From Deltaproteobacteria bacterium (lineage in GTDB: Bacteria > Desulfobacterota > Binatia > HRBIN30 > JACQVA1): 64,000 nt of DNA. Below are positions 8,101 to 63,415 of this stretch, one piece after another. Location: NCBI GenBank assembly GCA_016178705.1, contig JACOST010000001.1, forward strand, positions 80,001-144,000. The letters run 5' to 3'. Each line of letters begins with the position of its first letter. Positions within the stretch are counted from its first letter, which is position 1. A program made the position numbers and the translations under genes. The notes beneath the pieces were generated by a model. It did not search any database. It was not told where the DNA came from and saw nothing but the letters and a program-made list of their open reading frames with translations.

Positions 8101-8772
8101 ATTGAGGTACTGAATCTGCCGCTCGAGCTCGTGCAGGATGTCGGTGACGCGCGACAAGTTCTCGCGGGTACGTTCCATCTTGCGCTCCGCCGCGAGCTTG
8201 CGGCTACGATAGAGCGTGGTGCCGGCGGCTTCTTCGATGAACAGCCGTCGATCTTCCGGTTTCGCGTTCACCAGCTGCTCGACGCGGCCTTGCTCGATGA
8301 TCGCATAGGCCTTGCTGCCGATGCCGGTGCCGAGAAACAATTCGGTGATATCCTTGAGGCGACAAGCGGTCTTATTGATGAAGTATTCCGACTCCCCGGA
8401 GCGGAAGTAGCGGCGCGTCACCATGATCTCTGCCAAATCGCGGAAGTGCGCCGGGACCGTCGAGACGTCGAGATCGGGATCGAGCGGCTGAGCGGTCGCG
8501 CGAGTCTCGCCGGTACTCTCGAACAGGATCGAGACCTCCGCCATGCCGAGGGGCGCGTGGCGTTCGTTGCCGTTGAAGATTACGTCCTCCATCGCGATGC
8601 CGCGCAGATGCTTGGGGCTCTGCTCGCCCAGCACCCAACGAATCGCGTCGACGACGTTCGATTTGCCGCAGCCGTTCGGCCCGACAATGCCGGTAACTCG
8701 CGAGGGAAAATTCAGGACCGTACGGTCCGCGAACGATTTGAAGCCGGCTAACTCAAGCTGCTTGATCCGCAT
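5185..8772 (-). CDS. smc: Chromosome segregation protein SMC
   Basis: A full-length 1195-residue SMC ATPase for chromosome condensation. The N-terminal head has Walker A in GPNGCGKSNVVDAIRW (near residue 32). Two very long coiled coils flank a hinge (about 515-670) that includes YEGYQPGVRSIMAQ and GVLGVVADVIGIP. The C-terminal head has the signature LLSGGEKALVATSL, Walker B FCFLDEVDAPLDDANI, and ITHNKRTMECAETLYGVTMQ. Nothing is missing. It is followed by ftsY after a 126-bp gap. No scpA or scpB gene is in the window. Confidence 0.98.
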   Translation of the reverse strand: MRIKQLELAGFKSFADRTVLNFPSRVTGIVGPNGCGKSNVVDAIRWVLGEQSPKHLRGIAMEDVIFNGNERHAPLGMAEVSILFESTGETRATAQPLDPDLDVSTVPAHFRDLAEIMVTRRYFRSGESEYFINKTACRLKDITELFLGTGIGSKAYAIIEQGRVEQLVNAKPEDRRLFIEEAAGTTLYRSRKLAAERKMERTRENLSRVTDILHELERQIQYLNRQAKRAEQYRALQEEMRALDLTVASYQWRQLSADIVRLEEERRQTVAEQERLQHEVAALESTREAVSAAVSAAEAHLGQRREALAVLDAERESQGQRIDMLRQEVRERARRLGRLDAERDALQNRSAGLARELAAAERDRDECAQLFLFEEGELKGRETDLAAAREAQRGVQRAAEDAKGHVIALVTRMAEVRNEIAAVTRRRDDVQRRLARLADDRQALATQLETTEHELTARGRAAVALQERLQTAAGEKEHRAAQIRALAEERRRCERELNDLRAQLVGTQSRLRSLEEIQRNYEGYQPGVRSIMAQEQPAHGVLGVVADVIGIPREYERAVAAALGDRLQYVIVEGAEDGAGAVSNLREHASGRGSFIPVVPRPVPLNGLGAAGMNGNSSRLLDLVQVDDRYRQVAEALLGEVVLVPDLKSALSIWHQNGRYVTMVTPEGDVVDANGVITGGSEAPIEAEILSRRRELAELSQRAGVLGARVGKAEAQLATLSERIAEEEAALAIIDHDTHAATLELVAAEKDVERLEHERPRLTDRIEVVRFEAESLAGEINHANTELTQLSVTLAGYGEQHAGREEALRARQAEVEVATDRAETLATEVTATKVRVAERRERQHAAGAALTRLVANREDLAERERSLRGEHEETANERTGLEQSVLAAGEVAAAQAAQRATLEAEVNDALHGAETAQGLLGEQEQAVNAHREQLDRVRALRSETDLALAERRLSGEHLRSSVQEKYSLDLTQEAAAHTEMPAEGATERLQTLRERIARIGEVNVSAIDELRELEERAQFLCTQKEDLERSLADLERTIQQLNRASRARFAETFAKVNERFQVVFPRLFRGGEARLVLTDEHNLLESGVEIVVRPPGKRLETVSLLSGGEKALVATSLIFSLFLINPTPFCFLDEVDAPLDDANIGRFTQMVREMSDTSQFIVITHNKRTMECAETLYGVTMQEPGLSKVIAVAMH

Positions 8773-47893: not shown

Positions 47894-48076
47894 CAGAAAA
47901 CTCACCGCCGAGGACGCGGAGATCGCAGAGAGAGCGTCGCCACGGAGAGTATTCCAGCCATTTTCGTTAACCTCATTGGCGATGGACTTTCGTTTGGCTT
48001 CTTCGTGGTCTCCCGCTCATTGGCTCGGCGCTCTCGGCGCGCTCTGCGGTGAATCCGTTCATGTCACATCAGGGTT
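47893..48076 (+). repeat. Dispersed CTCACCGCCGAGGACGCGGAG repeat, copy A
   Basis: A repeat of about 184 bp that begins just after the rph stop and runs into the 5' end of the rdgB frame. It starts with ACTCACCGCCGAGGACGCGG and ends CTCTGCGGTGAATCCGTTCA followed by TGTCACATCAGGG. Copy B (56946-57130) is similar throughout, and copy C (63286-63415, reversed) matches its right half. Confidence 0.85.
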
Positions 48077-48796: not shown

Positions 48797-48870
48797 CGGG
48801 GTGTGGCGCAGCCTGGTAGCGCACCTGCCTTGGGCGCAGGGGGTCGGAGGTTCAAATCCTCTCACCCCGA
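48797..48870 (+). tRNA. tRNA-Pro (anticodon TGG)
   Basis: A 74-nt cloverleaf. The acceptor stem is CGGGGTG/CACCCCG, the anticodon stem is CCTGC/GCAGG around CTTGGGC (anticodon TGG), and the T-arm is GGAGGTTCAAATCCTC. The CCA end is not encoded. Confidence 0.96.
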
Positions 48871-48934
48871 CTTCGATTCGGACGACGTGTGGCCACGGCA
48901 TCGCACCAGAGCACGATCGATGTGCGACGTACGG

Positions 48935-49008
48935 GCGCCAGTAGCTCAGGTGGATAGAGCAACGGCCTTCTAAGCCGTAGGTCTCCGGTTCGAATCCGGA
49001 CTGGCGCG
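48935..49008 (+). tRNA. tRNA-Arg (anticodon TCT)
   Basis: A 74-nt cloverleaf. The acceptor is GCGCCAG/CTGGCGC, and the anticodon stem is ACGGC/GCCGT around CTTCTAA (TCT). The T-arm is TCCGGTTCGAATCCGGA. The CCA end is not encoded. Confidence 0.96.
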
Positions 49009-49056
49009 TCTGCTTGAGAGGCTGGTGCGGTGATCGCGCGCACGGGGGGAAGTATG

Positions 49057-49128
49057 GTGGGCGTAGCTCAATGGTAGAGCACTGGACTGTGGCTCCAGGG
49101 GTTGAGGGTTCGAAACCCTTCGCTCACC
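49057..49128 (+). tRNA. tRNA-His (anticodon GTG)
   Basis: The acceptor is GTGGGCG/CGCTCAC with one G-U pair. An extra G stands at 49056, which pairs with the discriminator C, as is characteristic of tRNA-His. The anticodon stem is CTGGA/TCCAG around CTGTGGC (GTG). The T-run from 49130 may end the transcript. Confidence 0.95.
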
Positions 49129-49205
49129 CTTTTTTCAGTAACCGCTCCGCGCAGCCACTTGAGTTGCGTTCGCGGGTATGGTGAGAGTGCTGCGCGTCGT
49201 CGTAC

Positions 49206-49279
49206 GGGCCGCTAGCTCAGTTGGCTAGAGCAGCTGACTCTTAATCAGCGGGTCGAGTGTTCGAGTCACTCGCGGCCCA
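49206..49279 (+). tRNA. tRNA-Lys (anticodon CTT)
   Basis: A 74-nt cloverleaf. The acceptor is GGGCCGC/GCGGCCC, and the anticodon stem is GCTGA/TCAGC around CTCTTAA (CTT). The T-arm is GAGTGTTCGAGTCACTC. The CCA end is not encoded. Its 3' end is duplicated at 50671, suggesting it serves as an integration site. Confidence 0.96.
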
Positions 49280-49385
49280 CTCGGGAAAGCCCCTGAGCAA
49301 TCGGGGGCTTTTTCTTTTGCCGCGCGGTGCTTCACCGGCTCAACGGTCGTTTGGTGCCAACTGGTGCCAAAGAATTTTCGAGCCG
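49271..49385 (+). repeat. Left direct repeat (attL-like, tRNA-Lys 3' end)
   Basis: It begins in the 3' strand of the tRNA-Lys acceptor stem (CGCGGCCCAC), includes the terminator, and ends in TTTGGTGCCAAC and GGTGCCAAAGAAT. It recurs at 50671-50787 at about 80 percent identity by eye. Direct repeats that start in a tRNA 3' end are typical of sites used by tyrosine recombinases. Confidence 0.7.
49286..49318 (+). terminator. Intrinsic terminator after the tRNA cluster
   Basis: An 8-bp stem AAAGCCCC (49286-49293) and GGGGCTTT (49304-49311) with a 10-base loop is followed by TTTCTTTT. It sits directly after tRNA-Lys. A decayed copy occurs at about 50686-50718. Confidence 0.85.
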
Positions 49386-52138: not shown

Positions 52139-53728
52139 TCACAACCCCATCGGCGCGATCCAGATGATGTCGCCGTTGTTGTCGTTGCCTAAGAAGAGAC
52201 GGCCGTCGCTCGCAAACGCCACGACGGCCGGGCGGCCGTGCAACAGCGGGCCGCCAGCCCAACCGGTCGCGAAGTCCAACATGGAACCACTCGATTCACC
52301 GCCGAGGTCTGATCCAGGCAATAGCTGGCCGGTTGCCGGATCCAACTCGATGGCGACCACGCGCGCGCCATCCCAGGTCCCATACGCACCATGGAGCGGA
52401 ACGTACACGCGCTGATTCCATGGCGCGGGCCATTGCCCGGTCTCGAAATCCAAATCGAAGGGCGTGTGCCCGATGACGAACGAGTTGTTCTCGGATGCGA
52501 CCGCGGAACAGTTCGGCACCGGAGCGATGTCCGGATACGGTACGTCCTTGGTGGCGCAACATGGGTGTCCCCAATCGTCGCCCGGCCGGATCGGCACCAG
52601 CTTTTCGCGCCCGTCCTGCGTGGCCGAATAGTCCCGCGCGAGTTCCACTGCGAAGCACAGGTTGTGACCGCGCGAGCAGCGCACCGAGATGGGGTTGCGG
52701 AAACCCTTGGCGACCGGCGTGCCGCCGGGAGAACCGTCGAGCTTGAGGATGCCTCCACGGAAAGGGTGCATGATCGTGCAGGTCTCTCCCTGTTCGCCGC
52801 CGTTGCCGACGTAGATGGTGCCGTCGTCGGCGACGTCGAGCGTCTTCGGCCAATGCAGCTGGGAGCTGTAGATGGTGATGTCGGCAACCTGCTCGCTGCT
52901 ACCCGACGGCGTACGATCGCCCGTCGCGTAGGGCACGCGCATAATCTTCGTCCCACGCTGGTAGTACAAGAACCCGCCGGTGAAGAGCAGGCCTTGTGTC
53001 GAAGGGAGTCCGCTCATAAACGTCAGCGGCGTGTCCGCCACGCCATCGTGATCATCGTCGGGGAGAACCATGATCGACCTCAGACCTCTGGGTCCACCTC
53101 CAGTCGTGACCGCCGTGGGTGATGCGACGAACAGTTCGCCGCCTGGAGCGAAGCGCAATTGCCGCGTGTTGCCGATGTTGGCGAAAAAGTGCGCGCAGAA
53201 ACCGACGGGCAGATGCAGGAACCGCAGATCCGGCGCGCTCGCCGGGCCGCCAGGGATGACGACCAGACCGTTTGCCGTCGTCTGAACCGAGCCGGGAAGA
53301 TCGCAGAAATGAACCGGCACGGTCGGAATCGGCGTCTCGGTCGGAGTCGGCAAGGGCGGCACTGTTGCGGTTGCGGTCGCGGTCGGCGTTTCGGTCAACA
53401 CCGCTTCTGTCGCTGTGAACGTGGGCGTGGCTTTCACCGGGCAGCGGTTCAGCGCGTAGCCCACCGCGCGCACGATTTCGTCGATCGATACCCGCCCATC
53501 GTCGTCGCTATCGAACCCCGGGCAGGTGTCGAGCGGCAGGCTGTCGAGCGCGATGTTCACACCCGCCACCAACTCCTCGACCGTCACCTGGCCATTGCCA
53601 TCACAGTCGCCGACACACGCGTCAAACGCGGCGGCGGCGCTTTGCCCGTAAGTTTGGGCGCTGGCAATAGCCAGCACCAGAGCCGCGAGCAGCAGGGTCT
53701 GTGATGCTATGGTGAACCGTCGAGTCAT
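52139..53728 (-). CDS. Secreted sugar-dehydrogenase-like beta-propeller with EF-hand repeats
   Basis: A 529-residue exported protein. The signal peptide (about 1-29) is followed by two EF-hand or dockerin-like loops (DCDGNGQVTVEEL and DSDDDGRVSIDEI, about 38-90), a Thr/Pro linker (TATATATVPPLPTPTETP, about 110-130), and a propeller resembling PQQ-type glucose/sorbosone dehydrogenases (LRFAPGGELFVAS, TLDVADDGTIYVGNGGEQG, GRLFLGNDNNGDIIWIAP). Electron transfer is not shown. Two NxS sequons (in ENNSF and PNCSA) are present. It is divergent from the ALG11-like gene. Confidence 0.78.
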   Translation of the reverse strand: MTRRFTIASQTLLLAALVLAIASAQTYGQSAAAAFDACVGDCDGNGQVTVEELVAGVNIALDSLPLDTCPGFDSDDDGRVSIDEIVRAVGYALNRCPVKATPTFTATEAVLTETPTATATATVPPLPTPTETPIPTVPVHFCDLPGSVQTTANGLVVIPGGPASAPDLRFLHLPVGFCAHFFANIGNTRQLRFAPGGELFVASPTAVTTGGGPRGLRSIMVLPDDDHDGVADTPLTFMSGLPSTQGLLFTGGFLYYQRGTKIMRVPYATGDRTPSGSSEQVADITIYSSQLHWPKTLDVADDGTIYVGNGGEQGETCTIMHPFRGGILKLDGSPGGTPVAKGFRNPISVRCSRGHNLCFAVELARDYSATQDGREKLVPIRPGDDWGHPCCATKDVPYPDIAPVPNCSAVASENNSFVIGHTPFDLDFETGQWPAPWNQRVYVPLHGAYGTWDGARVVAIELDPATGQLLPGSDLGGESSGSMLDFATGWAGGPLLHGRPAVVAFASDGRLFLGNDNNGDIIWIAPMGL

Positions 53729-53827: not shown

Positions 53828-54988
53828 ATGGCCACGACCGAATCGATAACGCGGAAGATCTTGTTCGTCATGCCATCGCTGCAGCCGCGGGGCGGTGGCA
53901 GAGGGGTCGCCGCGTGGATGATTGAAGCGCTGAAGCAGGAACACGACCTCGCGGTGCTGATGTGGGAGCCGCTCGACCCCGAGCCGATCAATCGCTACTA
54001 CGGCACGGCGCTCGGCCACGGCGACTTCGCGGTGCTGCGCCCGCCCTTGTGGTGGCGCCTTGTGCTTGATCGTATTCCCTTCCGCCTCAACTTGCTTCGC
54101 ATTTGTCTGTTGTGGCGGCGGGGTAAACAGATCAGCCATTCGTACGACCTGCTCATCTCCACGCACAACGAGGCCGATCTCGGCACGCCCGGCATTCAGT
54201 ACGTCCACTTTCCGTGGGTCTTCTTCGCAGAACCCGAGGGCTCATTGCGCTGGTACCAACGCTCGGCCGCCTTGCTGCGGTGGTACTACAAGCGCTGCCT
54301 GCGGATCGCCGATTTCTCCTCCGAACGTATGAAACGCAACCTCACCTTAGTCAACTCCGACTGGACCGGGTCGAAGGTGTACGAACGTCACGGCCTCGCG
54401 AGCACCACGCTGTATCCGCCGGTGGTCGGTGGTAACACGCAGCTATCGTGGTCCGCGCGCGAGAACGGCTTCGTGTGCGTCGGGCGCCTGTCGCCCAGCA
54501 AGGAATTGGACCGCGTGATCGACATCGTCGCCGGAGTTCGCCAGGCCGGACACGACGTACACTTGCACCTCATCGGGTCCACCACCGAGCCTCCCTATTT
54601 GGATCACATCCGACGCCGCGTGCGTGACAATGCGGCCTGGCTATTCCTCGATGAGAATCCGTCGCGCGCCGAGTTGAATCAGCGGTTGGCCGAACATCGT
54701 TACGGCATCCACGGCATGCAAGAGGAGCACTTCGGGATGGCCATCGGAGAGATGGTGCGCGCGGGTTGTGTCGTGTTCGTTCCGGACGGCGGCGGGCAGG
54801 TGGAGATCGTCGACCGCGATCCGCGCCTCCTTTACAACAGCGTCGACGATGCGGTCACCAAGATCGTCGCCACCCTCGATGACCCCAGCCGGCAAGAGGC
54901 GCTGCGGACGCATCTGTCATCGCGCGCCGATGTGTTCTCGGTCGAGCGGTTCATCGCCCGAGTGCGGGAACTCGTGCGGGACTTCTAG
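53828..54988 (+). CDS. ALG11-like GT4 glycosyltransferase
   Basis: A 386-residue GT-B enzyme. The N-lobe starts KILFVMPSLQPRGGGRGVAAW; the middle has TLVNSDWTGSKVYERHG, and the C-lobe has FVCVGRLSPSKELDRVIDI. The segment YGIHGMQEEHFGMAIGEMV with GGGQVEIV strongly resembles eukaryotic ALG11, the alpha-1,2-mannosyltransferase of lipid-linked oligosaccharide synthesis (NSxWT and EHFGI-x-V-E-x-M). The donor could be GDP-mannose, but that is inferred. It converges on the ABC flippase gene with a 6-bp gap. Confidence 0.8.
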   Translation: MATTESITRKILFVMPSLQPRGGGRGVAAWMIEALKQEHDLAVLMWEPLDPEPINRYYGTALGHGDFAVLRPPLWWRLVLDRIPFRLNLLRICLLWRRGKQISHSYDLLISTHNEADLGTPGIQYVHFPWVFFAEPEGSLRWYQRSAALLRWYYKRCLRIADFSSERMKRNLTLVNSDWTGSKVYERHGLASTTLYPPVVGGNTQLSWSARENGFVCVGRLSPSKELDRVIDIVAGVRQAGHDVHLHLIGSTTEPPYLDHIRRRVRDNAAWLFLDENPSRAELNQRLAEHRYGIHGMQEEHFGMAIGEMVRAGCVVFVPDGGGQVEIVDRDPRLLYNSVDDAVTKIVATLDDPSRQEALRTHLSSRADVFSVERFIARVRELVRDF

Positions 54989-54994
54989 ATTCGT

Positions 54995-56815
54995 TCACGG
55001 CGTCACCGCCTCGCTACCGGTGCGGACCATGTTCTGGAACTCAGCGTTGCCGGCCAGCAGTTCGTCGAACGATCCAATCCCCGCGATGCGACCATTGCGC
55101 AGGAACACCAGGCGATCGCAGTTGTGCACCGTGCTCAGGCGATGGGCGATGATGATCAGCGTCTTCTTGCCGTGCAGCTCGTCGATCGCGCGCGTCAGCT
55201 CACGCTCGGTTTGCAGATCGAGCGCCGAAGTCGCCTCGTCGAACACCAACAGCTCGGGTTGATGGTAGAGCGCGCGCGCAATCGCTACGCGCTGGCGCTC
55301 GCCGCCGGAGAGACGGACGCCACGCTCGCCCACCACCGTCTCGAGGCCCTGCGGAAGGCCGGCGACGAACTCCTCCAACTGCGCCAGACGAACCGCGGCG
55401 GAGAGTTTGACATCGTCAATGCCTCGCTCGGGCAAGGCAAAGGCGATGTTGCGACGCAGCGTATCGTCGATGAGGTAGACGGCTTGCGGCACGTAGCCGA
55501 TGCGCCGCTGCCACCCGCGCAAGTACGCATTGCGCGCAAAGATATCACAGCCATCCACGGTGACATGCCCGGTCGCCGGCTGCAGGAAGCCCAGGATCAT
55601 GTCAACCAACGTGCTCTTGCCGGCGCCGGTCGGGCCGACAATCCCGATCGATTCGCCGCGGCTGATGACCAGATCGATCGCCTGCGCCGCGGGGGTCGCG
55701 GCCCCAGCGTAGATGTATGAGACGCCGGCCAACTCGATGCGATCGCTAAACGAAAGGTCAGCGACACCGTCGGTGCTCGCGGGTGCGGCCACGACGCGAC
55801 GAAACGTGACAAAGTCGTCGTACAGCTTCTCCACCGCCACCGAACCCCAGCGGATCGTGTTGAGATGCAGCAGCACGCGATTGACGGAAGGGATGACGCG
55901 GAAGCCGGCATACGCGTACAACCCCAGCAGCGGCACGATGTCAGGCCCCGCCACGCTGCGCGAGTTCACCAGCGTGATCAGCAACAGCATGCCGCACACG
56001 AACACGGTCTCAATCAGCAAGCGCAGCGAATCGTTGAGTGTGATGTAACGATGGCGGAGACGGCTGAGCGTGCGATGCTGCGCAGAGTACAGGCCGTGAA
56101 AAAACGCGTCGCCGCCGCGCAGCTTGACTTCCTTCAGCGCCCCGAACGTCTGTTGCAGGGTCTGCAACGTCTCGCGCTTGAGATCATGCTCCTGCCGACT
56201 CCAGCGCGTCAGCACTCGTCGTGTCAGGCGCAACAGTCCGGCCAGCAGCGAGAACAGCATGACGATGGCGATCAGCGTCGACACCGGCGCCGTGCTCATC
56301 AGGACCGACACGATCGCCAGGGTGATCAGCATCTCGGTGACGATCGCCACCGCGGCAGTCATGACCTGGCGAAAGACCACGTCGGTACCGTCCGCCGTAT
56401 GGCGAATCAATTCGGCGGAGTTGCGTTGGAAATGAAACGCCATCGGTAGCGACAAGTACCCGCGCAGCATGTCACTGGCCAATTGCGTGACCGAATCGGT
56501 GACGACTCGGCTCTCGATGGCGACGACGAATGCCAGGAACGCGTTCTTCACCACATAGAACAGCGCCACCAGCACCGTGGCCCACAAGACGATCGCGCGC
56601 GCGTCGCCGGCCGGAAGAATCCGGTAAATCAATCCCGCGAACACGAACGACGGCGGGTGGAGCGGATCACCGATCAGCTTGATCAGGAGAAACACCGCGG
56701 CGGCGCCGAGCGCCTCCAATGCCGCCGCCGATACCACCAGCGGCACCACGGCGACCCAACGCCAGCGCAGTGCCGATGGCAGAAAGAGCAAGCACTTGCG
56801 CAACGTGTTGAACAT
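54995..56815 (-). CDS. PglK-type ABC transporter (half-transporter, flippase-like)
   Basis: A 606-residue exporter-type half transporter: six membrane helices (about 15-320) then an ATPase domain with Walker A GPTGAGKSTLVDMI, Q-loop region GYVPQAVYLIDDTLRRNI, signature LSGGERQRVAIARAL, Walker B LLVFDEATSALD, and the His switch in IIAHRLSTV. In this locus, its likely job is flipping an undecaprenyl-linked glycan across the inner membrane, like PglK. Other exporter roles cannot be excluded. ATG at 56815 chosen; 56848 is possible. Confidence 0.85.
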   Translation of the reverse strand: MFNTLRKCLLFLPSALRWRWVAVVPLVVSAAALEALGAAAVFLLIKLIGDPLHPPSFVFAGLIYRILPAGDARAIVLWATVLVALFYVVKNAFLAFVVAIESRVVTDSVTQLASDMLRGYLSLPMAFHFQRNSAELIRHTADGTDVVFRQVMTAAVAIVTEMLITLAIVSVLMSTAPVSTLIAIVMLFSLLAGLLRLTRRVLTRWSRQEHDLKRETLQTLQQTFGALKEVKLRGGDAFFHGLYSAQHRTLSRLRHRYITLNDSLRLLIETVFVCGMLLLITLVNSRSVAGPDIVPLLGLYAYAGFRVIPSVNRVLLHLNTIRWGSVAVEKLYDDFVTFRRVVAAPASTDGVADLSFSDRIELAGVSYIYAGAATPAAQAIDLVISRGESIGIVGPTGAGKSTLVDMILGFLQPATGHVTVDGCDIFARNAYLRGWQRRIGYVPQAVYLIDDTLRRNIAFALPERGIDDVKLSAAVRLAQLEEFVAGLPQGLETVVGERGVRLSGGERQRVAIARALYHQPELLVFDEATSALDLQTERELTRAIDELHGKKTLIIIAHRLSTVHNCDRLVFLRNGRIAGIGSFDELLAGNAEFQNMVRTGSEAVTP

Positions 56816-56945
56816 GCCTAGCGATCTCGGATCTCGGGGCTGCGGCAATCGGTCACTACCGGTCTGCTATCAAGCCCGCAGGTGTATCCGCAAACGCCGA
56901 CATCCCTGACCACAACCGCGTCAACAACTCCACGTGCGAGCCCTG

Positions 56946-57130
56946 ATGAGACAAAAGACTCACCGCCGAGGACGCGGAGATCGCAGAGAAAGCGTCAACA
57001 CGAGAGTATTCGAGCATGTTCGACAACCTCATTTGCAATGGACTTCCGTGTGACCTCCTTCGTGGTCTCCCACTCCATGCTCGGCGCTCTCGGCGTACTC
57101 TGCGGTGAATCCGTTCATGCCACATCAGGG
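56946..57130 (+). repeat. Dispersed repeat, copy B
   Basis: About 185 bp similar to copy A throughout, from ACTCACCGCCGAGGACGCGG to CATGCCACATCAGGG. It ends one base before the reverse-complemented stop codon of the ALG1-like gene, so it forms the spacer between two glycosylation genes. Confidence 0.85.
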
Positions 57131-58378
57131 CTAGTCGCCATCGAAGAACAGCGGCTTCGCCGCAACGTTCCACGCATCGATCCAGCGCCGCGGCGGCATC
57201 GCCCGCACATTCTGCCGCAGGCGATCAAGCTGTGGCGTGTGGCGCGGATGCTCGCTGAACAGCTCGAAGAGCTGCTGTGCCAGCTGCGCTCCGCTCGAAA
57301 ACAACAAGCCGGTTTCACCATCCTGGACTTGCTCCGTCACGCACGCGCCGTAGTCGAACGCGCACACCGGCAAGCCGGCGCCGAACATGTCGGCGATCTT
57401 CATCGGTAGGTCGACGCCCGATGACGAACGGTGCAACGACACACCTAAGTCGGCAGACCCCAACAGCCGAGCGTAGTCATCGGGCGCGAGCCACAGCGTG
57501 CGAATCTGAATTGCTCGCAACGTCAGCCGTGCAATGGCCGCGTCGAAGCGCGCGCGCAGTGGGCCCTCGCCGGTGATGAGGATCATCAGTCGTGCGGCGG
57601 TCGTGCACAGCCGTTCGTCGCAAAGGCGCAGCGCGTCGAGCAACAGATCGAAGTCCTCGTCAGCGGTCCAACTCGTCGCGCTGACGACGATGCCTGGACG
57701 CTGCGGCTCTTCGAACGGGACATCGACGATGCCGGCGACGCACAGGCGGTGAAAGTGGTCGCGCCGCGCTTCGACCGGCGTCGGCGTAAACCGCTCTGCC
57801 GGGCAGTCGTAGAGCACCGTCGCAGCGATGCCGCGCTCGCGCAGCGCGTTTAGCATCGCGCGCGAGACACACAGGTGCACATCAGCGCGCCGGCCGATGG
57901 CGAACTCGTATCCGCGCGCCAGCCGAACCATCGGATGAGTGTGGCCGAGCCGCAGCCCGAGCATCGTGTATCCGAAGTTGTGCCAGTCGATGATCAACTT
58001 CGCCGCACGCAGCCGCGCGGCCAACACGGCGACGAGCAGCGTCGGCATCGCCGGCGGATTCTGCACCAGGATGACGTCCGGTTTTGGCAACACGAGTAGT
58101 CGATAGAGTAACTGCCCGCTCTGGTGCAGCGCACGCAGCATCGCGCACAGGAGAAATAGCGGGCGAGGGAGATGCGTTGACGTGGCGCCTGGCAGGTCTC
58201 GCAAGCGGTGGAGCCGCACGTGCGGGCTCGCGCAGTCGTGGCGCTCGCTAGAGTACGCGATCACATCAACCTCAGCCGAACTGGTTGCCAACGCATCGGC
58301 GTGGTACTGCATGCGCGGGCTGCGCTCGAATTCGCCGAGCACAACGATGGCAACGCGAGGATGAGGGGTGGACGACAT
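57131..58378 (-). CDS. ALG1-like beta-1,4-mannosyltransferase
   Basis: A 415-residue GT33-type protein with end-to-end likeness to eukaryotic ALG1, which adds the first mannose to GlcNAc2-PP-dolichol. Matching segments in order are SPRMQYHADALA (20-31), ILVQNPPAMPTLL (103-115), IIDWHNFGYTMLGL (129-142), SATSWTADEDFDLLLDAL (233-250), ITGEGPLR, LLGSADLGVSLHRSSSG (305-321), DLPMKIADMFGAGLPVCA and the C-terminal RWIDAW. No membrane helix is obvious at the N-terminus. Its start codon overlaps that of the divergent MurG-like gene at a CATG. Confidence 0.85.
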   Translation of the reverse strand: MSSTPHPRVAIVVLGEFERSPRMQYHADALATSSAEVDVIAYSSERHDCASPHVRLHRLRDLPGATSTHLPRPLFLLCAMLRALHQSGQLLYRLLVLPKPDVILVQNPPAMPTLLVAVLAARLRAAKLIIDWHNFGYTMLGLRLGHTHPMVRLARGYEFAIGRRADVHLCVSRAMLNALRERGIAATVLYDCPAERFTPTPVEARRDHFHRLCVAGIVDVPFEEPQRPGIVVSATSWTADEDFDLLLDALRLCDERLCTTAARLMILITGEGPLRARFDAAIARLTLRAIQIRTLWLAPDDYARLLGSADLGVSLHRSSSGVDLPMKIADMFGAGLPVCAFDYGACVTEQVQDGETGLLFSSGAQLAQQLFELFSEHPRHTPQLDRLRQNVRAMPPRRWIDAWNVAAKPLFFDGD

Positions 58379-59537
58379 GAGCACGACGTACGTGGCTCAT
58401 ACCGATTCTGAAGCAGGCGAGCTAGTCAGGCGACGCGTCGCCATCGTCGCCGGCGGCACGGCGGGGCATGTCTACCCAGCGCTGGCGCTTGCCGACGCGT
58501 ATCGGCAAGCACGGCCCGATGTCGACCTGCTTTTCATCGGCACCGCCGATGGTTGGGAGACGCGGCTGGTACCCGCTCACGGCTATCGACTCGCAGTGGT
58601 CCCAGGCTCGCCGCTGTACGGCGTTGGTCTGCGCGGTGTAGTGCGCGCCGCCCGCGATCTGCTGGCCGGCGCACGCGCCGCACGTCGTCTCTTGCAAACC
58701 CAACGGACCGAGTTGGTCATCGGCTTTGGCGGCTACGTTTCAGCCGGTACCATTCTCGCGGCGCGCATGCTGGGCATGCGCACCGCGATTCACGAGGCAA
58801 ACGTCGTACCCGGGTTGACCAATCGACTACTCGGGCATCTCGTCGACCGCGTGTACCTCGCCTTCGCAGACGCGAGCCGCGCATTTCCACCGCGCCGCGC
58901 TGTCGTGATCGGAATGCCGCTACGCGCGGAGTTCGCGAATGCGCAGCGATCGCGCGACGCGTTCTCCGCCAGTCGCCCGCGGCGATTGCTGGTAACCGGT
59001 GGCTCCGGCGGTTCGCGATTCCTGAACGGGCGTGTGCCCGAACTGGTGGCGCGCCTCGCGCAGCGCGCGGTGGCGATCGAGGTGCTGCACCAGGCCGGCG
59101 ATTGGCCAATCGAGCCCGTGCAAGCGTTGTACGCGGCGACCGGGGCGACGGCGACGGTCGTGTCATTCATCGACGACATCGGCGCCGCCTACGCGTGGGC
59201 CGACTTCGCGGTAACCTGTGCGGGCGCCGGCACGCTTGCGGAGTTGGCGGCTGCCGCCTTGCCAGCGCTGCTGGTACCGCTGGCGAGTGCCGCGGCCAAC
59301 CACCAGGCGCGCAACGCCGCAGCCTTCGCGCGCGCGGCCGGGCTGCGCTGCGTCGCGGAGTCAACCTGGCAGGTCGAAGCGTTGGCGGAACCCATCGTCA
59401 CGCTGTTGCAGAACGCTGACGCGTGGGCGGCGGCGGCGAATCGCGTCGGCAGCCTCGCTCACGCGGACGCCGCGGCGCGCCTGGTCGCCGATTGTGAAGC
59501 GCTGCTCCACCTCAGCTCTACGGGTCCGGCCAGTTGA
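58377..59537 (+). CDS. MurG-like GlcNAc transferase
   Basis: A 386-residue GT28 protein related to MurG: AIVAGGTAGHVYPALALADA, GFGGYVSAGTILAARMLGMR, IHEANVVPGLTNRLL, VTGGSGGSRFLN, and CAGAGTLAELAAAALPALLV. Motifs are intact but differ in places from true MurG (such as GGSGG for GGSQG). Given its neighbours, it may add the second GlcNAc to GlcNAc-PP-lipid, as Alg13/Alg14 (which are MurG relatives) do. The alternative is a second MurG. It overlaps the oligosaccharyltransferase gene by 20 bp (convergent). Confidence 0.8.
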   Translation: MSTTYVAHTDSEAGELVRRRVAIVAGGTAGHVYPALALADAYRQARPDVDLLFIGTADGWETRLVPAHGYRLAVVPGSPLYGVGLRGVVRAARDLLAGARAARRLLQTQRTELVIGFGGYVSAGTILAARMLGMRTAIHEANVVPGLTNRLLGHLVDRVYLAFADASRAFPPRRAVVIGMPLRAEFANAQRSRDAFSASRPRRLLVTGGSGGSRFLNGRVPELVARLAQRAVAIEVLHQAGDWPIEPVQALYAATGATATVVSFIDDIGAAYAWADFAVTCAGAGTLAELAAAALPALLVPLASAAANHQARNAAAFARAAGLRCVAESTWQVEALAEPIVTLLQNADAWAAAANRVGSLAHADAAARLVADCEALLHLSSTGPAS

Positions 59538-62169
59538 TCTTCCAGGTCACGACGCGCTCGCCCTTGTAGCCGATGCGCTCGTCGAACTTCTCAAAGAACT
59601 GCGCGTAGCGGCCGTCGAGGTAGACCAGATGGGTGAACGTCGAACGCAGCAAGTACGGCGGACCAATGAGCACACGCTGATTGACGAGATCGAGCAGGAC
59701 GCCCAGCCGAGCATCCGTGGCGCTTGCGGGCGACACCTCGTCGAGGTGATCGGCGCCCGCGATCACAATGCTGGCGGGCACGCTATCGATGCGGTGTGAC
59801 GCGCTGCCACTGTCCGTGCGATGCAGCAGGAGTCGGCCGTTTGCCGGCGCGTCGATGTGGTAGCGAAACTCGTCGAGCACGGTCGTGCCGCGATCGAGCG
59901 GCACGTCGACTGGGCAGATCACGTCGCCGGCCTCGCTCGGGGCCCGGCACGGCTTCCAGTTTGGGTCGACGTAGCCGGTCGCCGGGCCGATGAAGTTGCG
60001 CACCGCGGCTTCGGACTGCAACGCGGTCGCTTGCAAATAGAGTCGCGTCGCATCCGCTCGAGAATGACCGAAGCGCTGCATCAAGTCTGCGACCGCGGCC
60101 GGCAGCGGGAGGTCGCGCGCGTGTGTGGCAATGTAGGCGCGCTCGACATCCCAGCTCCCCAGATGTCGCCACGCCGGCTGATCGATCAGTTCGGAGCTGA
60201 GCACGAGATACGCCGGCGGCGGCGAACAGTGCGAGGCTGCCAGAATGCGGGCGCTGGCTGCGGACTCGATGCCGCGCTTAGCGAGATACTGCTGCGCAGC
60301 AGAGCGATCCATGCTCGCGAGTTGAAGGATGACCCCGTGCGCGGTCACCTCATCGACGCCGGCTGCCAGCAAGCGGCCGTAGGCGCCGGCGTCGCCTTCA
60401 TCATCCGGCGTCGCATCCGAGCCGCAATCCAACATGCGCAACAGCCCGATCGCTTCGCGCTCGGTCGGCGCCAAAAACGCTCGCGCTATCCAGTGCGGGA
60501 TATGCGTCATCAGCGATCCGCCGTCGGCGCTGCCCCGGCGCTCGGCGACGAACTTCACCCAGTAGCCGTAGTCCCACCACGTGGTGACGATCGCGGACGA
60601 CGACGTTTCGTCGCGGATCCTCCGCAGGGCCTCCCACCACGCGGCGTTGATGCGAGGCACGTAGTTGCTCGCCACGGCATAGCCGCGCTGCACGGGCAAC
60701 ACCAACGTCCCGGCGAGCGCGATGAAGGCCACGCCGCCGGCGACTCGCGCAGAGGCAGGGACCAGACGCGCGGCCGCGTCACGGAGCCACTGCTGCAAGC
60801 GGCCGAGCAGTACGCCGAACGCGATACCGAACGGCGGCACCAGCAACATCACGAAGCGCAGGCCGCTGTGGGCTTGGAATAGCGCGCTCAGAAACCAGGC
60901 GATGACGATCACACCGGCACCGCGGTCGCTGGCGTCGTCGGCGGTTACGACGTGCAGACCGAGCGCCAGCCCCAGCGGCATCGCCAGCATCGCGATCAAC
61001 ACGAGTCGGCCGACGTCGGACATCAAGGCGAGATAGCCATAGAGGCAACTCCCACCGATGAATATGGCGAGTTGCCAGCGCTTCCAGTCGGAACGCGGTA
61101 GCGCCAGCAACAAGAGGCCGAGACAACCGAGGGCGAAGTACGCGCGGCCGCCGAGCCCGTCGGCGACGCTGCTCAAGTTTGTCCCACGAAGTTCGCCGAC
61201 GGTCACAAAGACATCCGGCCAGTACCGAGTCGGCGCTCCTCGAGCCGATGACTCGGGGGCCTCTCGAACCATGAACTCCGCGACAATCCCCGGAGCGCGC
61301 AGGTACCCCTTGAGCGATCCGTTCATCCACGCCGCCGCTCCCGTTGCAAGATAGAACATGCCGGACACGATCAACGCGGTGCGAAGCCGCAGCGCGTACG
61401 CCGCGGCCGCGCGGCGACGGTCGAGCAACGCCTGCGCGGCCACCAGGAGGACGTAAGCCGCCAACCCCGCCAGCAGCACCATGTAGGTGAAAAACCATCC
61501 GCGCCAAGTGGCGAGGTGCAAGCCGGCAGCGAGCGCCGCGGCCAACACGTACATCGCCCGTCGCCAGCCGGTGGCAGCCAAAGCGGCGCCGGCCGCGGCA
61601 AACATCCACAACGGCAGAATGACATTCCACACGTCGTTGTCGCTTCCCAGGCTGCGCTCGAGAAACACGGGGTTGGCGCCGATGACCACCGCGGCCGCCA
61701 CGCCGGCGAGATTGCCAGCGAGCCGTCGGCCCAGGCAGAACGCCGGCAGCACCCCTAGGGCGCCCACAATCGCTTGCACGAGAAACGAACTCGCCGGCAG
61801 CGGGAAGCCAGCGTCGAACCAGGTCAGGATACGTTGCACTGCTACAATCGCAGTGAAGTGTGCCGAGTGATTGTACATCGTCCGCCGCCCGACCGGCGCG
61901 TTGGAGTATCCGTCGTGGCATTTGCCGTCGGTCCCCTTCTCGCAGGTAGCGCCGGTGCGCAAATAGGTACGCGCGTCGGACAGCCACGCGTAGCTGTCGT
62001 AGTCGCCCAGGCAAGTGTAGTCGCGGCCGTCATCGGCGTGGTAGCGCAACTGCCCTTTGACGTTCTCTGGAACCGCCTGCAGCGCGAGCGGCAAGAGCCG
62101 CACCCACGCCACGAACGCAACCGCGGCCAGCGCCAGCGCGCCGGTCGTGACCCGCTCGCGGCGGCTCAC
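59518..62169 (-). CDS. Oligosaccharyltransferase, STT3/PglB/AglB family
   Basis: An 883-residue GT66 protein with about 11-13 membrane helices (1-490) and a large C-terminal exported domain. Catalytic hallmarks are visible: first acidic motif GDYDSYAWLSD (55-65), second DxD in SLGSDNDVWNVILPL (173-187), TVGE (323-326, the TIXE loop), and WWDYG (531-535) in TTWWDYGYWVKF. The cysteine pair in TCLGDY...CEKG could be a disulfide. It starts at GTG overlapping the WecA stop (4 bp). It should transfer the lipid-linked glycan to Asn sequons. Confidence 0.92.
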   Translation of the reverse strand: MSRRERVTTGALALAAVAFVAWVRLLPLALQAVPENVKGQLRYHADDGRDYTCLGDYDSYAWLSDARTYLRTGATCEKGTDGKCHDGYSNAPVGRRTMYNHSAHFTAIVAVQRILTWFDAGFPLPASSFLVQAIVGALGVLPAFCLGRRLAGNLAGVAAAVVIGANPVFLERSLGSDNDVWNVILPLWMFAAAGAALAATGWRRAMYVLAAALAAGLHLATWRGWFFTYMVLLAGLAAYVLLVAAQALLDRRRAAAAYALRLRTALIVSGMFYLATGAAAWMNGSLKGYLRAPGIVAEFMVREAPESSARGAPTRYWPDVFVTVGELRGTNLSSVADGLGGRAYFALGCLGLLLLALPRSDWKRWQLAIFIGGSCLYGYLALMSDVGRLVLIAMLAMPLGLALGLHVVTADDASDRGAGVIVIAWFLSALFQAHSGLRFVMLLVPPFGIAFGVLLGRLQQWLRDAAARLVPASARVAGGVAFIALAGTLVLPVQRGYAVASNYVPRINAAWWEALRRIRDETSSSAIVTTWWDYGYWVKFVAERRGSADGGSLMTHIPHWIARAFLAPTEREAIGLLRMLDCGSDATPDDEGDAGAYGRLLAAGVDEVTAHGVILQLASMDRSAAQQYLAKRGIESAASARILAASHCSPPPAYLVLSSELIDQPAWRHLGSWDVERAYIATHARDLPLPAAVADLMQRFGHSRADATRLYLQATALQSEAAVRNFIGPATGYVDPNWKPCRAPSEAGDVICPVDVPLDRGTTVLDEFRYHIDAPANGRLLLHRTDSGSASHRIDSVPASIVIAGADHLDEVSPASATDARLGVLLDLVNQRVLIGPPYLLRSTFTHLVYLDGRYAQFFEKFDERIGYKGERVVTWKINWPDP

Positions 62170-63215
62170 GAACGCACTCCGTAGCCCAACTTGCGCACCG
62201 CAGCGTAAATGGCCACGACCACGCCGGCCACCAGCAGCGCATTGCCTCGACCACCGATCACGATGGCGAGATAGGCCAGCACGCTCAAGAGCACGGACAC
62301 CGCATAGAGCAACAGCACGGCGCGGCGCTGGCTCAACCCGCGACGAAGCAACCGGTGATGAATGTGCTCCTGATCGGCCCGGAAGATGCCCGCCGCTCCC
62401 GCGGCGGAGAAGCGCCGCAGCATCGACAATCCGGTTTCGATGATCGGAAGACCGAGTACCAGCAGCGGGGCCAACACGACGACAATCGTGCTACCTTTCC
62501 CTTGCGCCTGGATCGACAACACGGAGAGAAGAAAGCCAACAACCAGTGCCCCGGAGTCGCCGAGAAAAATCGACGCCGGATGAAAGTTGTAGACCAGGAA
62601 ACCGACCAACGCCCCGGCCAACGTCGCCGCGAGCAGTCCAGCCTCCGGCCGTTCCTGCATTTGCGCGACCACGATCAACGTCACGGCGGCGATCACGCCA
62701 ACGCCGGCCGCGAGTCCGTCGAGCCCATCGATGAGATTGACTGCGTTGGTGATGCCGACGATCCACAGCAGCGTGATAGGAGTGCCGAACACGCTCAGCG
62801 CGATGTAGCCGCCGGTGAACGGGTTGGTCACGGCACTAAATCCATAGCCGCCGGCGAGCGCCATCAACCCAGCAACGATCTCGACCGCCAGCTTCGGCCA
62901 CGGCCCGAGACCGCGGACGTCATCGATGACGCCGACGGTGACCACGCAGAGCGTGCCCGCCAACAGCCACAGCAACTGCGGAAGTTCGCCAAATGGCTTG
63001 ATGCCGCCGGCAGCGGCGCCGATTGCGAGCGCTGCCAGCATCGCTGCCACCACCGCCAACCCGCCGAGGCGCGGGACATTGTTGCGATGCACGCGGCGAT
63101 CACCCGGTACGTCGACCGCACCGAAGCGTGCGGCGGCGGCGCGCACCACCGGCGTCGCCAACAATGCCAGCGCGGTAGCAGTCGTGAACTGCAGTCCGTA
63201 TCCACCCATCATCAT
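62166..63215 (-). CDS. WecA/TagO-type undecaprenyl-P GlcNAc-1-phosphate transferase
   Basis: A 349-residue polyprenyl-P hexosamine-1-P transferase (MraY/WecA/ALG7 superfamily) with about 10-11 helices. It shows VDVPGDRRVHRNNVPRLGG (start of loop 1), VIDDVRGLG, NAVNLIDGLDGLAAG, FLGDSGAL and the carbohydrate-site loop DQEHIHHRLLRRG. It starts at one of three ATGs at 63209-63215 after GAGCGG. The longer frame would translate a dispersed repeat. It overlaps the oligosaccharyltransferase start, making a two-gene operon that supplies and uses the lipid-linked glycan. Confidence 0.9.
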   Translation of the reverse strand: MMMGGYGLQFTTATALALLATPVVRAAAARFGAVDVPGDRRVHRNNVPRLGGLAVVAAMLAALAIGAAAGGIKPFGELPQLLWLLAGTLCVVTVGVIDDVRGLGPWPKLAVEIVAGLMALAGGYGFSAVTNPFTGGYIALSVFGTPITLLWIVGITNAVNLIDGLDGLAAGVGVIAAVTLIVVAQMQERPEAGLLAATLAGALVGFLVYNFHPASIFLGDSGALVVGFLLSVLSIQAQGKGSTIVVVLAPLLVLGLPIIETGLSMLRRFSAAGAAGIFRADQEHIHHRLLRRGLSQRRAVLLLYAVSVLLSVLAYLAIVIGGRGNALLVAGVVVAIYAAVRKLGYGVRS

Positions 63216-63285: not shown

Positions 63286-63415
63286 TCGATGCGACAAAAA
63301 ATGGATTCACCGCAGAGCGCGCCGAGAGCGCCGAGCCATAGAGCGGGAGACCACGAAGGAGCCCGACGCAACTCCACACTCCTCTCTGCGGTCTCCGCGC
63401 TCTTGGCGGTGCGCC
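63286..63415 (-). repeat. Dispersed repeat, copy C (reversed, shorter)
   Basis: On the minus strand it reads GGCTCGGCGCTCTCGGCGCG then CTCTGCGGTGAATCC, the same right-hand part as copies A and B. The left part is truncated to about 120-130 bp. It lies between the wecA-like and CMD-family genes. Confidence 0.8.

Follow-up and report, generated by a model that had tools for sequence, protein, structure and literature searches.

An ALG1-like gene beside an STT3-type oligosaccharyltransferase gene: a candidate N-linked glycosylation locus in bacteria

Results

Gene content of the locus

The window, that is the whole stretch of 64,000 nucleotides that was analysed, carries six neighbouring open reading frames. 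All six (6/6) were found at the coordinates given in the original prediction, which had described them as six neighbouring genes of one pathway; its outer limits, 53828 and 63215, are internal ATG codons. Domains were assigned to the six genes by Pfam and NCBIfam searches, and a repeat of about 61 nucleotides was found in two inverted copies:

53828–54988, + strand: GT4 glycosyltransferase, earlier called "ALG11-type" (PF00534, E = 2e-11); the frame is open from 53744
54995–56848, − strand: MsbA/PglK-type ABC transporter with fused permease and ATPase, proposed flippase of a lipid-linked oligosaccharide (PF00005, E = 4e-29)
57055–57115: copy of the ~61-nucleotide repeat, between the ABC transporter and ALG1-like genes
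57131–58378, − strand: ALG1-like (GT33) glycosyltransferase, proposed β-mannosyltransferase acting on lipid-PP-GlcNAc2 (Pfam GT4-type domains; similarity to yeast ALG1)
58377–59537, + strand: MurG paralogue (MurG2), proposed to add the second GlcNAc (Pfam GT28/MurG; TIGR01133, 254.8 bits)
59518–62169, − strand: STT3/PglB/AglB-type oligosaccharyltransferase (PF02516, E = 6e-15 and above the model's cut-off; STT3/PglB core domain PF21436)
62166–63215, − strand: WecA-family polyprenyl-phosphate sugar-1-phosphate transferase (Glycos_transf_4, PF00953, E = 1e-40); the frame is open from 63422
63300–63361: inverted copy of the ~61-nucleotide repeat, outside the WecA-family gene

The six genes do not form a single operon, as two of them run in the opposite direction. 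The two inverted repeat copies flank the ALG1-MurG2-STT3-WecA portion and could be the sign of a mobile or rearranged segment. A 25-letter pattern describing the repeat core, with two ambiguous letters, has three sites in the window, including 48031–48055, and none in 100 shuffles. Four tRNA genes (Pro, Arg, His and Lys) lie in tandem at 48797–49280. The locus is adjoined by the gene of a large protein (52139–53626), which matches DUF7133 below the cut-off and in which EF-hand-like repeats can be made out by eye close to the start.

The ALG1-like protein

The yeast ALG1 and ALG11 reference sequences were entered by hand and are unverified, and the trees contain a single eukaryotic ALG1 row. 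In a control, the hand-entered ALG11 scored 266 bits against the Pfam ALG11 domain; a search for an equivalent ALG1-specific model returned none. Used as a query, yeast ALG1 matches the window protein with E = 2.0e-58 and 34% identity over residues 29–441 of 449.

Searched against 58 genomes, the window protein found matches in 26 at E = 0.001, which fall into two tiers. The strong tier consists of nine genomes, its own included, with E-values of 5.5e-61 or lower over most of the length. In the other 17 genomes the match is 4e-7 or weaker and covers mainly the C-terminal half, and within the nine genomes of the strong tier the next-best proteins begin at 2e-7. The hand-entered yeast ALG1 matches 13 of the 58 genomes: the same nine, at 1.1e-67 to 1.9e-47, and four others at 3.4e-8 or weaker, 3.4e-8 being the best match outside the family in the 58 genomes. 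Conserved stretches run throughout the alignment of the nine proteins. The window protein is 39–54% identical to eight others from its class. A profile of the bacterial family, made without the yeast sequence, gives yeast ALG1 a score of 369 bits, and yeast ALG11 is not among its matches.

In phylogenetic trees, yeast ALG1 shares a single clade with the bacterial ALG1 proteins, apart from other GT4 enzymes (SH-aLRT 100; 100/100 in a second tree). Five loci that are short, partial or on short contigs (L094, L095, L100, L102 and L105) are left out of both trees. The ALG11-like rows of the first tree are the first eight and that of the window. The second tree is smaller: it has none of the ALG11-like rows, lacks the near-copies L072, L073 and L079, and drops 13 of the 17 background rows of the first. 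Yeast ALG1 is nested within the bacterial sequences in both trees with weak local support, and the bacteria are kept apart in 0 of 200 bootstrap trees; the AU test does not reject a topology in which yeast branches outside the whole of bacterial ALG1 (p = 0.42).

The predicted structure has a GT-B fold (pLDDT 86.6), and MshA and BshA were the best matches in a fold search. A sequence search of the PDB returned no ALG1, so that the fold search shows the general GT-B fold only. Within the limit of the unverified yeast reference, the protein at 57131–58378 is, as judged from sequence, related to eukaryotic ALG1 (GT33) over its full length and is not an ordinary bacterial GT4 enzyme. The ALG1 assignment made originally is thus borne out by the alignment of the nine proteins, the yeast similarity, the profile score and both trees, in which the protein groups with yeast ALG1 instead of falling in an ordinary bacterial GT4 clade.

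The GT4 partner

The gene at 53828–54988 had been proposed to encode an ALG11-type enzyme. The N-terminal domain of ALG11, PF15924, was not reported at E-values up to 10 for any of the five members of the GT4-partner family that were searched; in the control, the same library detects it in yeast ALG11 (266 bits). The identification as ALG11 was therefore rejected. A distant likeness persists: with the profile of the GT4-partner family, yeast ALG11 reaches 77.7 bits, and yeast ALG1 is not among the matches. In pairwise comparison the hand-entered yeast ALG11 gives 17.8–38.7 bits with 19 members of the family, and 19.4–35.8 bits with six weaker GT4 frames. On this sequence evidence, 53828–54988 encodes a GT4 enzyme that is linked to the module and bears a distant likeness to ALG11.

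The MurG paralogue

The genome of the window encodes two MurG proteins above the TIGR01133 cut-off of 250.25 bits, MurG2 at 254.8 bits and the other at 309 bits. A MurG tree with 44 rows places 23 of the 24 ALG1-adjacent copies, that of the window included, in a single clade (100/98) that is separate from the other MurGs examined. The ALG1-adjacent MurG of L099 sits outside this clade; its gene appears in the tree twice, as L099 and as L154, and was labelled both ways. The scores and the clade separate MurG2 from the other MurG of the genome and uphold the second-MurG claim of the original prediction.

MurG2 of the window carries the motifs GGTAGH, which retains the histidine of the GGxGGH type, and HEAN. 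The GGH histidine is described as important for MurG and Agl24 (PMC8993221). From its position and paralogy, MurG2 may be a chitobiose synthase comparable to ALG13/ALG14 or Agl24.

A single MurG, scoring 280–328 bits, was found in 11 ALG1 genomes: four of the same order (G003, G005, G009 and G011) and seven of a mostly Acidobacteria group (G067, G071, G073, G074, G076, G078 and G092). The single MurGs of G003, G005 and G011 group with other MurGs in the tree, and the type of the remaining eight was assigned by score only. For the same glycan to be made in these genomes, the step would have to be carried out by their single MurG or by a different enzyme. No MurG2 lies beside STT3 in the Acidobacteria-type genomes whose STT3 surroundings were examined. 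Ten neighbouring proteins were scanned for a replacement enzyme, nine from loci without MurG2 and one from L039, which has MurG2; six matched other families and four matched none.

The STT3-type oligosaccharyltransferase

The STT3-type protein of the window is the sole PF02516 match at E = 0.001 in a genome of 6.1 Mb that is 98% complete. Twelve STT3 proteins, from the window and eleven ALG1-like loci, retain WWDYG or a close form and the invariant acidic residues. The predicted structure of the window protein has a mean pLDDT of 82.8. The top 19 PDB matches in a Foldseek search are oligosaccharyltransferases or complexes containing one, with PglB first. VIA-align comparison with PglB, AglB and STT3 structures gave Z-scores of 23.0–28.8. 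The C-mannosyltransferase DPY19 also matches, at Z = 22.7–23.1, level with the lowest oligosaccharyltransferases, and other GT-C enzymes score lower. Domain, motifs and fold thus bear out the STT3 identity proposed originally.

Among 148 genomes of the class, PF02516 is over its cut-off in 13 of the 15 with ALG1 versus 13 of the 133 without (Fisher p = 5.9e-10, a guide only, as the test ignores the kinship of the genomes). Genomes were counted as having ALG1 above 170 bits; 18 matched, and three below 50 bits were not counted. In the collection-wide scan, 28 of 35 ALG1 genomes have an STT3 over the cut-off and 7 do not, six repeats (see below) and L105, from the same assembly as L102, being left out of the 35.

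Divergent STT3 proteins were found beside ALG1-like genes in other groups. Pfam confirmed seven of them, from records with the labels Rokubacteria, Myxococcales, Bryobacterales, Opitutus and Rariglobus, and five of these have an AglB-type domain over the cut-off. That the STT3 proteins beside ALG1-like genes differ by group argues against simple inheritance of one block.

In G017, a genome rated 100% complete, ALG1, MurG2 and ABC genes lie together (L039, 5338–11410), and no PF02516 match was found at E = 0.001; another transferase or another product is possible there. In G013, a genome of the same order with the window's type of STT3, STT3 and MurG2 reach the contig end (L177, 7916–12207). 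No ALG1 match was found in G013, and the gene may have been lost to the assembly break.

The WecA-family enzyme, the ABC transporter and the donor sugar

The WecA-family assignment made originally is supported by the PF00953 match. Against the narrower WecA model, TIGR02380, the protein scores 126.6 bits, below the cut-off of 326.05. The ABC transporter likewise scores below the NCBIfam cut-offs, with 280.1 bits for MsbA (cut-off 602) and 259.2 bits for PglK (NF050066, cut-off 1000). A protein resembling the first domain of a two-domain GDP-mannose pyrophosphorylase was found in nine of nine ALG1 genomes, in none above the model cut-off; the match in G020 contains an internal stop.

Distribution and conservation of the neighbourhood

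A scan of a genome collection returned 42 ALG1-like loci, all in records bacterial by label. The labels are Deltaproteobacteria, Proteobacteria, Binatia, Acidobacteria (several orders), Rokubacteria, Myxococcales, Opitutaceae, one Phycisphaeraceae and single metagenome-assembled genomes of others. As far as the two peptide patterns of the scan could reach, none of the records is archaeal, and a scan of viral contigs returned no relative.

Partner genes were counted in 44 loci besides the window, with thresholds set by the authors. ABC transporters were found in 27, MurG2 in 23, the GT4 partner in 22, STT3 in 19 and WecA in 17. At least three of these five families are present in 25 of the 44 loci and none in eight; all five, as in the window, occur in four (L033, L078, L084 and L096). 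Where the DNA extends 5 kb on both sides (n = 28), 22 loci hold at least three partners and three hold none. The STT3 label was set by hand at nine loci, seven on Pfam matches and two (L077 and L079) on the motif alone. Repeats of genomes already included (L066, L086, L087, L088, L090 and L093) were left out of this count and of the MurG and ALG1 trees. The same families recur together in relatives and in records labelled as other phyla, and the grouping is therefore taken to be beyond chance; the expectation that the locus is kept as a unit in relatives agrees with this recurrence.

In an Acidobacteria-labelled clade (L069, L070, L072, L073 and L098) the ALG1-like gene has no partners in the DNA examined, the flanks of L072 and L073 being short. 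A contig labelled Acidimicrobiia shares the neighbours ABC, GT4, WecA, ALG1 and formate-tetrahydrofolate ligase with an Acidobacteria contig (L080 and L082), which suggests a mislabelled or mis-binned genome.

Comparison with known systems

N-glycan assembly in the eukaryotic endoplasmic reticulum involves ALG7, ALG13/14, ALG1, ALG2, ALG11 and STT3 (PMC4973528). The window resembles this pathway in that its ALG1 falls in the clade of yeast ALG1 and that its gene families mirror the order GlcNAc-phosphate, GlcNAc, mannose, more sugars and transfer by STT3. It differs in having a fused MurG-type enzyme instead of the split ALG13/14, a WecA-family enzyme instead of ALG7, no ALG11 domain, an ABC flippase and a one-gene oligosaccharyltransferase. 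The original description of the locus as a complete eukaryote-style pathway was overstated: MurG, WecA and the ABC exporter are of bacterial types, the second MurG or STT3 is missing in some relatives, and the GlcNAc2-Man product is a prediction.

An STT3-type transferase and an ABC flippase are also found in the Campylobacter pgl system (PglB and PglK), and PglB is the best Foldseek match. The window STT3 scores lower with the PglB model (24.6 bits) than with the archaeal STT3 model (39.1 bits). The pgl system uses bacillosamine and GalNAc and, to our knowledge, has neither ALG1 nor a MurG paralogue.

The crenarchaeal Agl24 is likewise a prokaryotic MurG-like enzyme, which makes a lipid-linked GlcNAc2 core for N-glycans (PMC8993221), a core that is proposed here for the window. 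Agl24 is a distant homologue from archaea, whereas MurG2 of the window is above the bacterial MurG cut-off. MurG2 shares with peptidoglycan MurG its family, a score above the curated cut-off and the histidine motif. It differs in being a second copy, in belonging to the ALG1-adjacent clade and in having HEAN in place of the HEQN of E. coli MurG (PMC8993221).

Discussion

The locus is probably a bacterial module for N-linked protein glycosylation with a glycan of the GlcNAc-GlcNAc-Man type. The computed support consists of the gene families, the kinship of ALG1, the separate MurG2 clade, the fold and motifs of STT3, co-occurrence and co-location. In the proposed mechanism, the WecA-family enzyme would transfer GlcNAc-1-phosphate onto undecaprenyl phosphate, and the dedicated MurG paralogue would add a second GlcNAc. 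The ALG1-like (GT33) enzyme would then add mannose from GDP-mannose and the GT4 enzyme at least one further sugar. The lipid-linked oligosaccharide would be flipped by the MsbA/PglK-type ABC transporter and moved by the STT3-type enzyme to asparagine of exported proteins. In this scheme we infer every sugar and every linkage, the substrate of the flippase, the protein targets and the transfer to asparagine.

It is conceivable, and fairly unlikely in our estimate, that the locus serves N-glycosylation with other sugars, the ALG1-like fold being kept with a different donor or acceptor so that the glycan is not GlcNAc2-Man. The score of the WecA-family enzyme below the WecA cut-off would fit this, as would the occurrence of ALG1-like genes with STT3 in genomes where a single MurG was found, by which the acceptor could in places be something other than chitobiose. 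The resemblance of the window protein to yeast ALG1 over its whole length, the histidine retained in MurG2 and the presence of a protein like a GDP-mannose enzyme speak instead for GlcNAc2-Man. A cluster for a surface polysaccharide or glycolipid, similar to those for O-antigen or capsule, with the STT3-type protein as a neighbour using another acceptor, appears improbable. WecA-type, GT4 and MsbA-type genes are indeed frequent in polysaccharide loci, and eight of the 44 ALG1-like loci are without a partner in the DNA examined; but STT3 goes with ALG1 in the class and in several labelled phyla, and Foldseek ranks oligosaccharyltransferases before other GT-C enzymes for the STT3 model.

A recent transfer of the ALG1-like gene from eukaryotes, without wider meaning, is the least credible of these explanations and highly improbable. 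One eukaryotic sequence was used, and the tree with yeast outside the bacteria, which is not rejected, leaves some room for it. Against it, the bacterial family is diverse, as the identities within the class show, and occurs under many labels; a recent single transfer is disfavoured because a narrow bacterial group would be expected. The reverse direction is put forward tentatively, at rather less than even confidence: ALG1 would be an old enzyme of bacterial N-glycosylation, several bacterial phyla would build lipid-linked GlcNAc2-Man glycans with a dedicated MurG paralogue and a GT33 mannosyltransferase, and eukaryotes would have taken ALG1 from them.

Lombard 2016 (PMC4973528) reports that it was not possible to establish which prokaryotic proteins are nearest to Alg1, and that the enzyme may have arisen as an innovation of eukaryotes. 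Among the titles and abstract openings surveyed there was no report of a bacterial ALG1 or of such a locus, and a text search with three short ALG1 peptide strings returned no paper; bacterial GT33 entries may exist in CAZy. A bacterial ALG1 family beside STT3 makes the question of the origin of Alg1 directly testable, and ALG1-STT3 loci widen bacterial N-glycosylation. The locus may also supply enzymes to build the core of the eukaryotic N-glycan in bacteria.

An extra GT4 gene was observed between the ALG1-like and ABC genes in three loci, at 8162–9475 in L032, 11179–12486 in L068 and 11262–12512 in L071. It has no strong match in the genome of the window, where the best is partial and scores 65.5 bits. 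Given this extra gene, the glycan may vary by one sugar among relatives.
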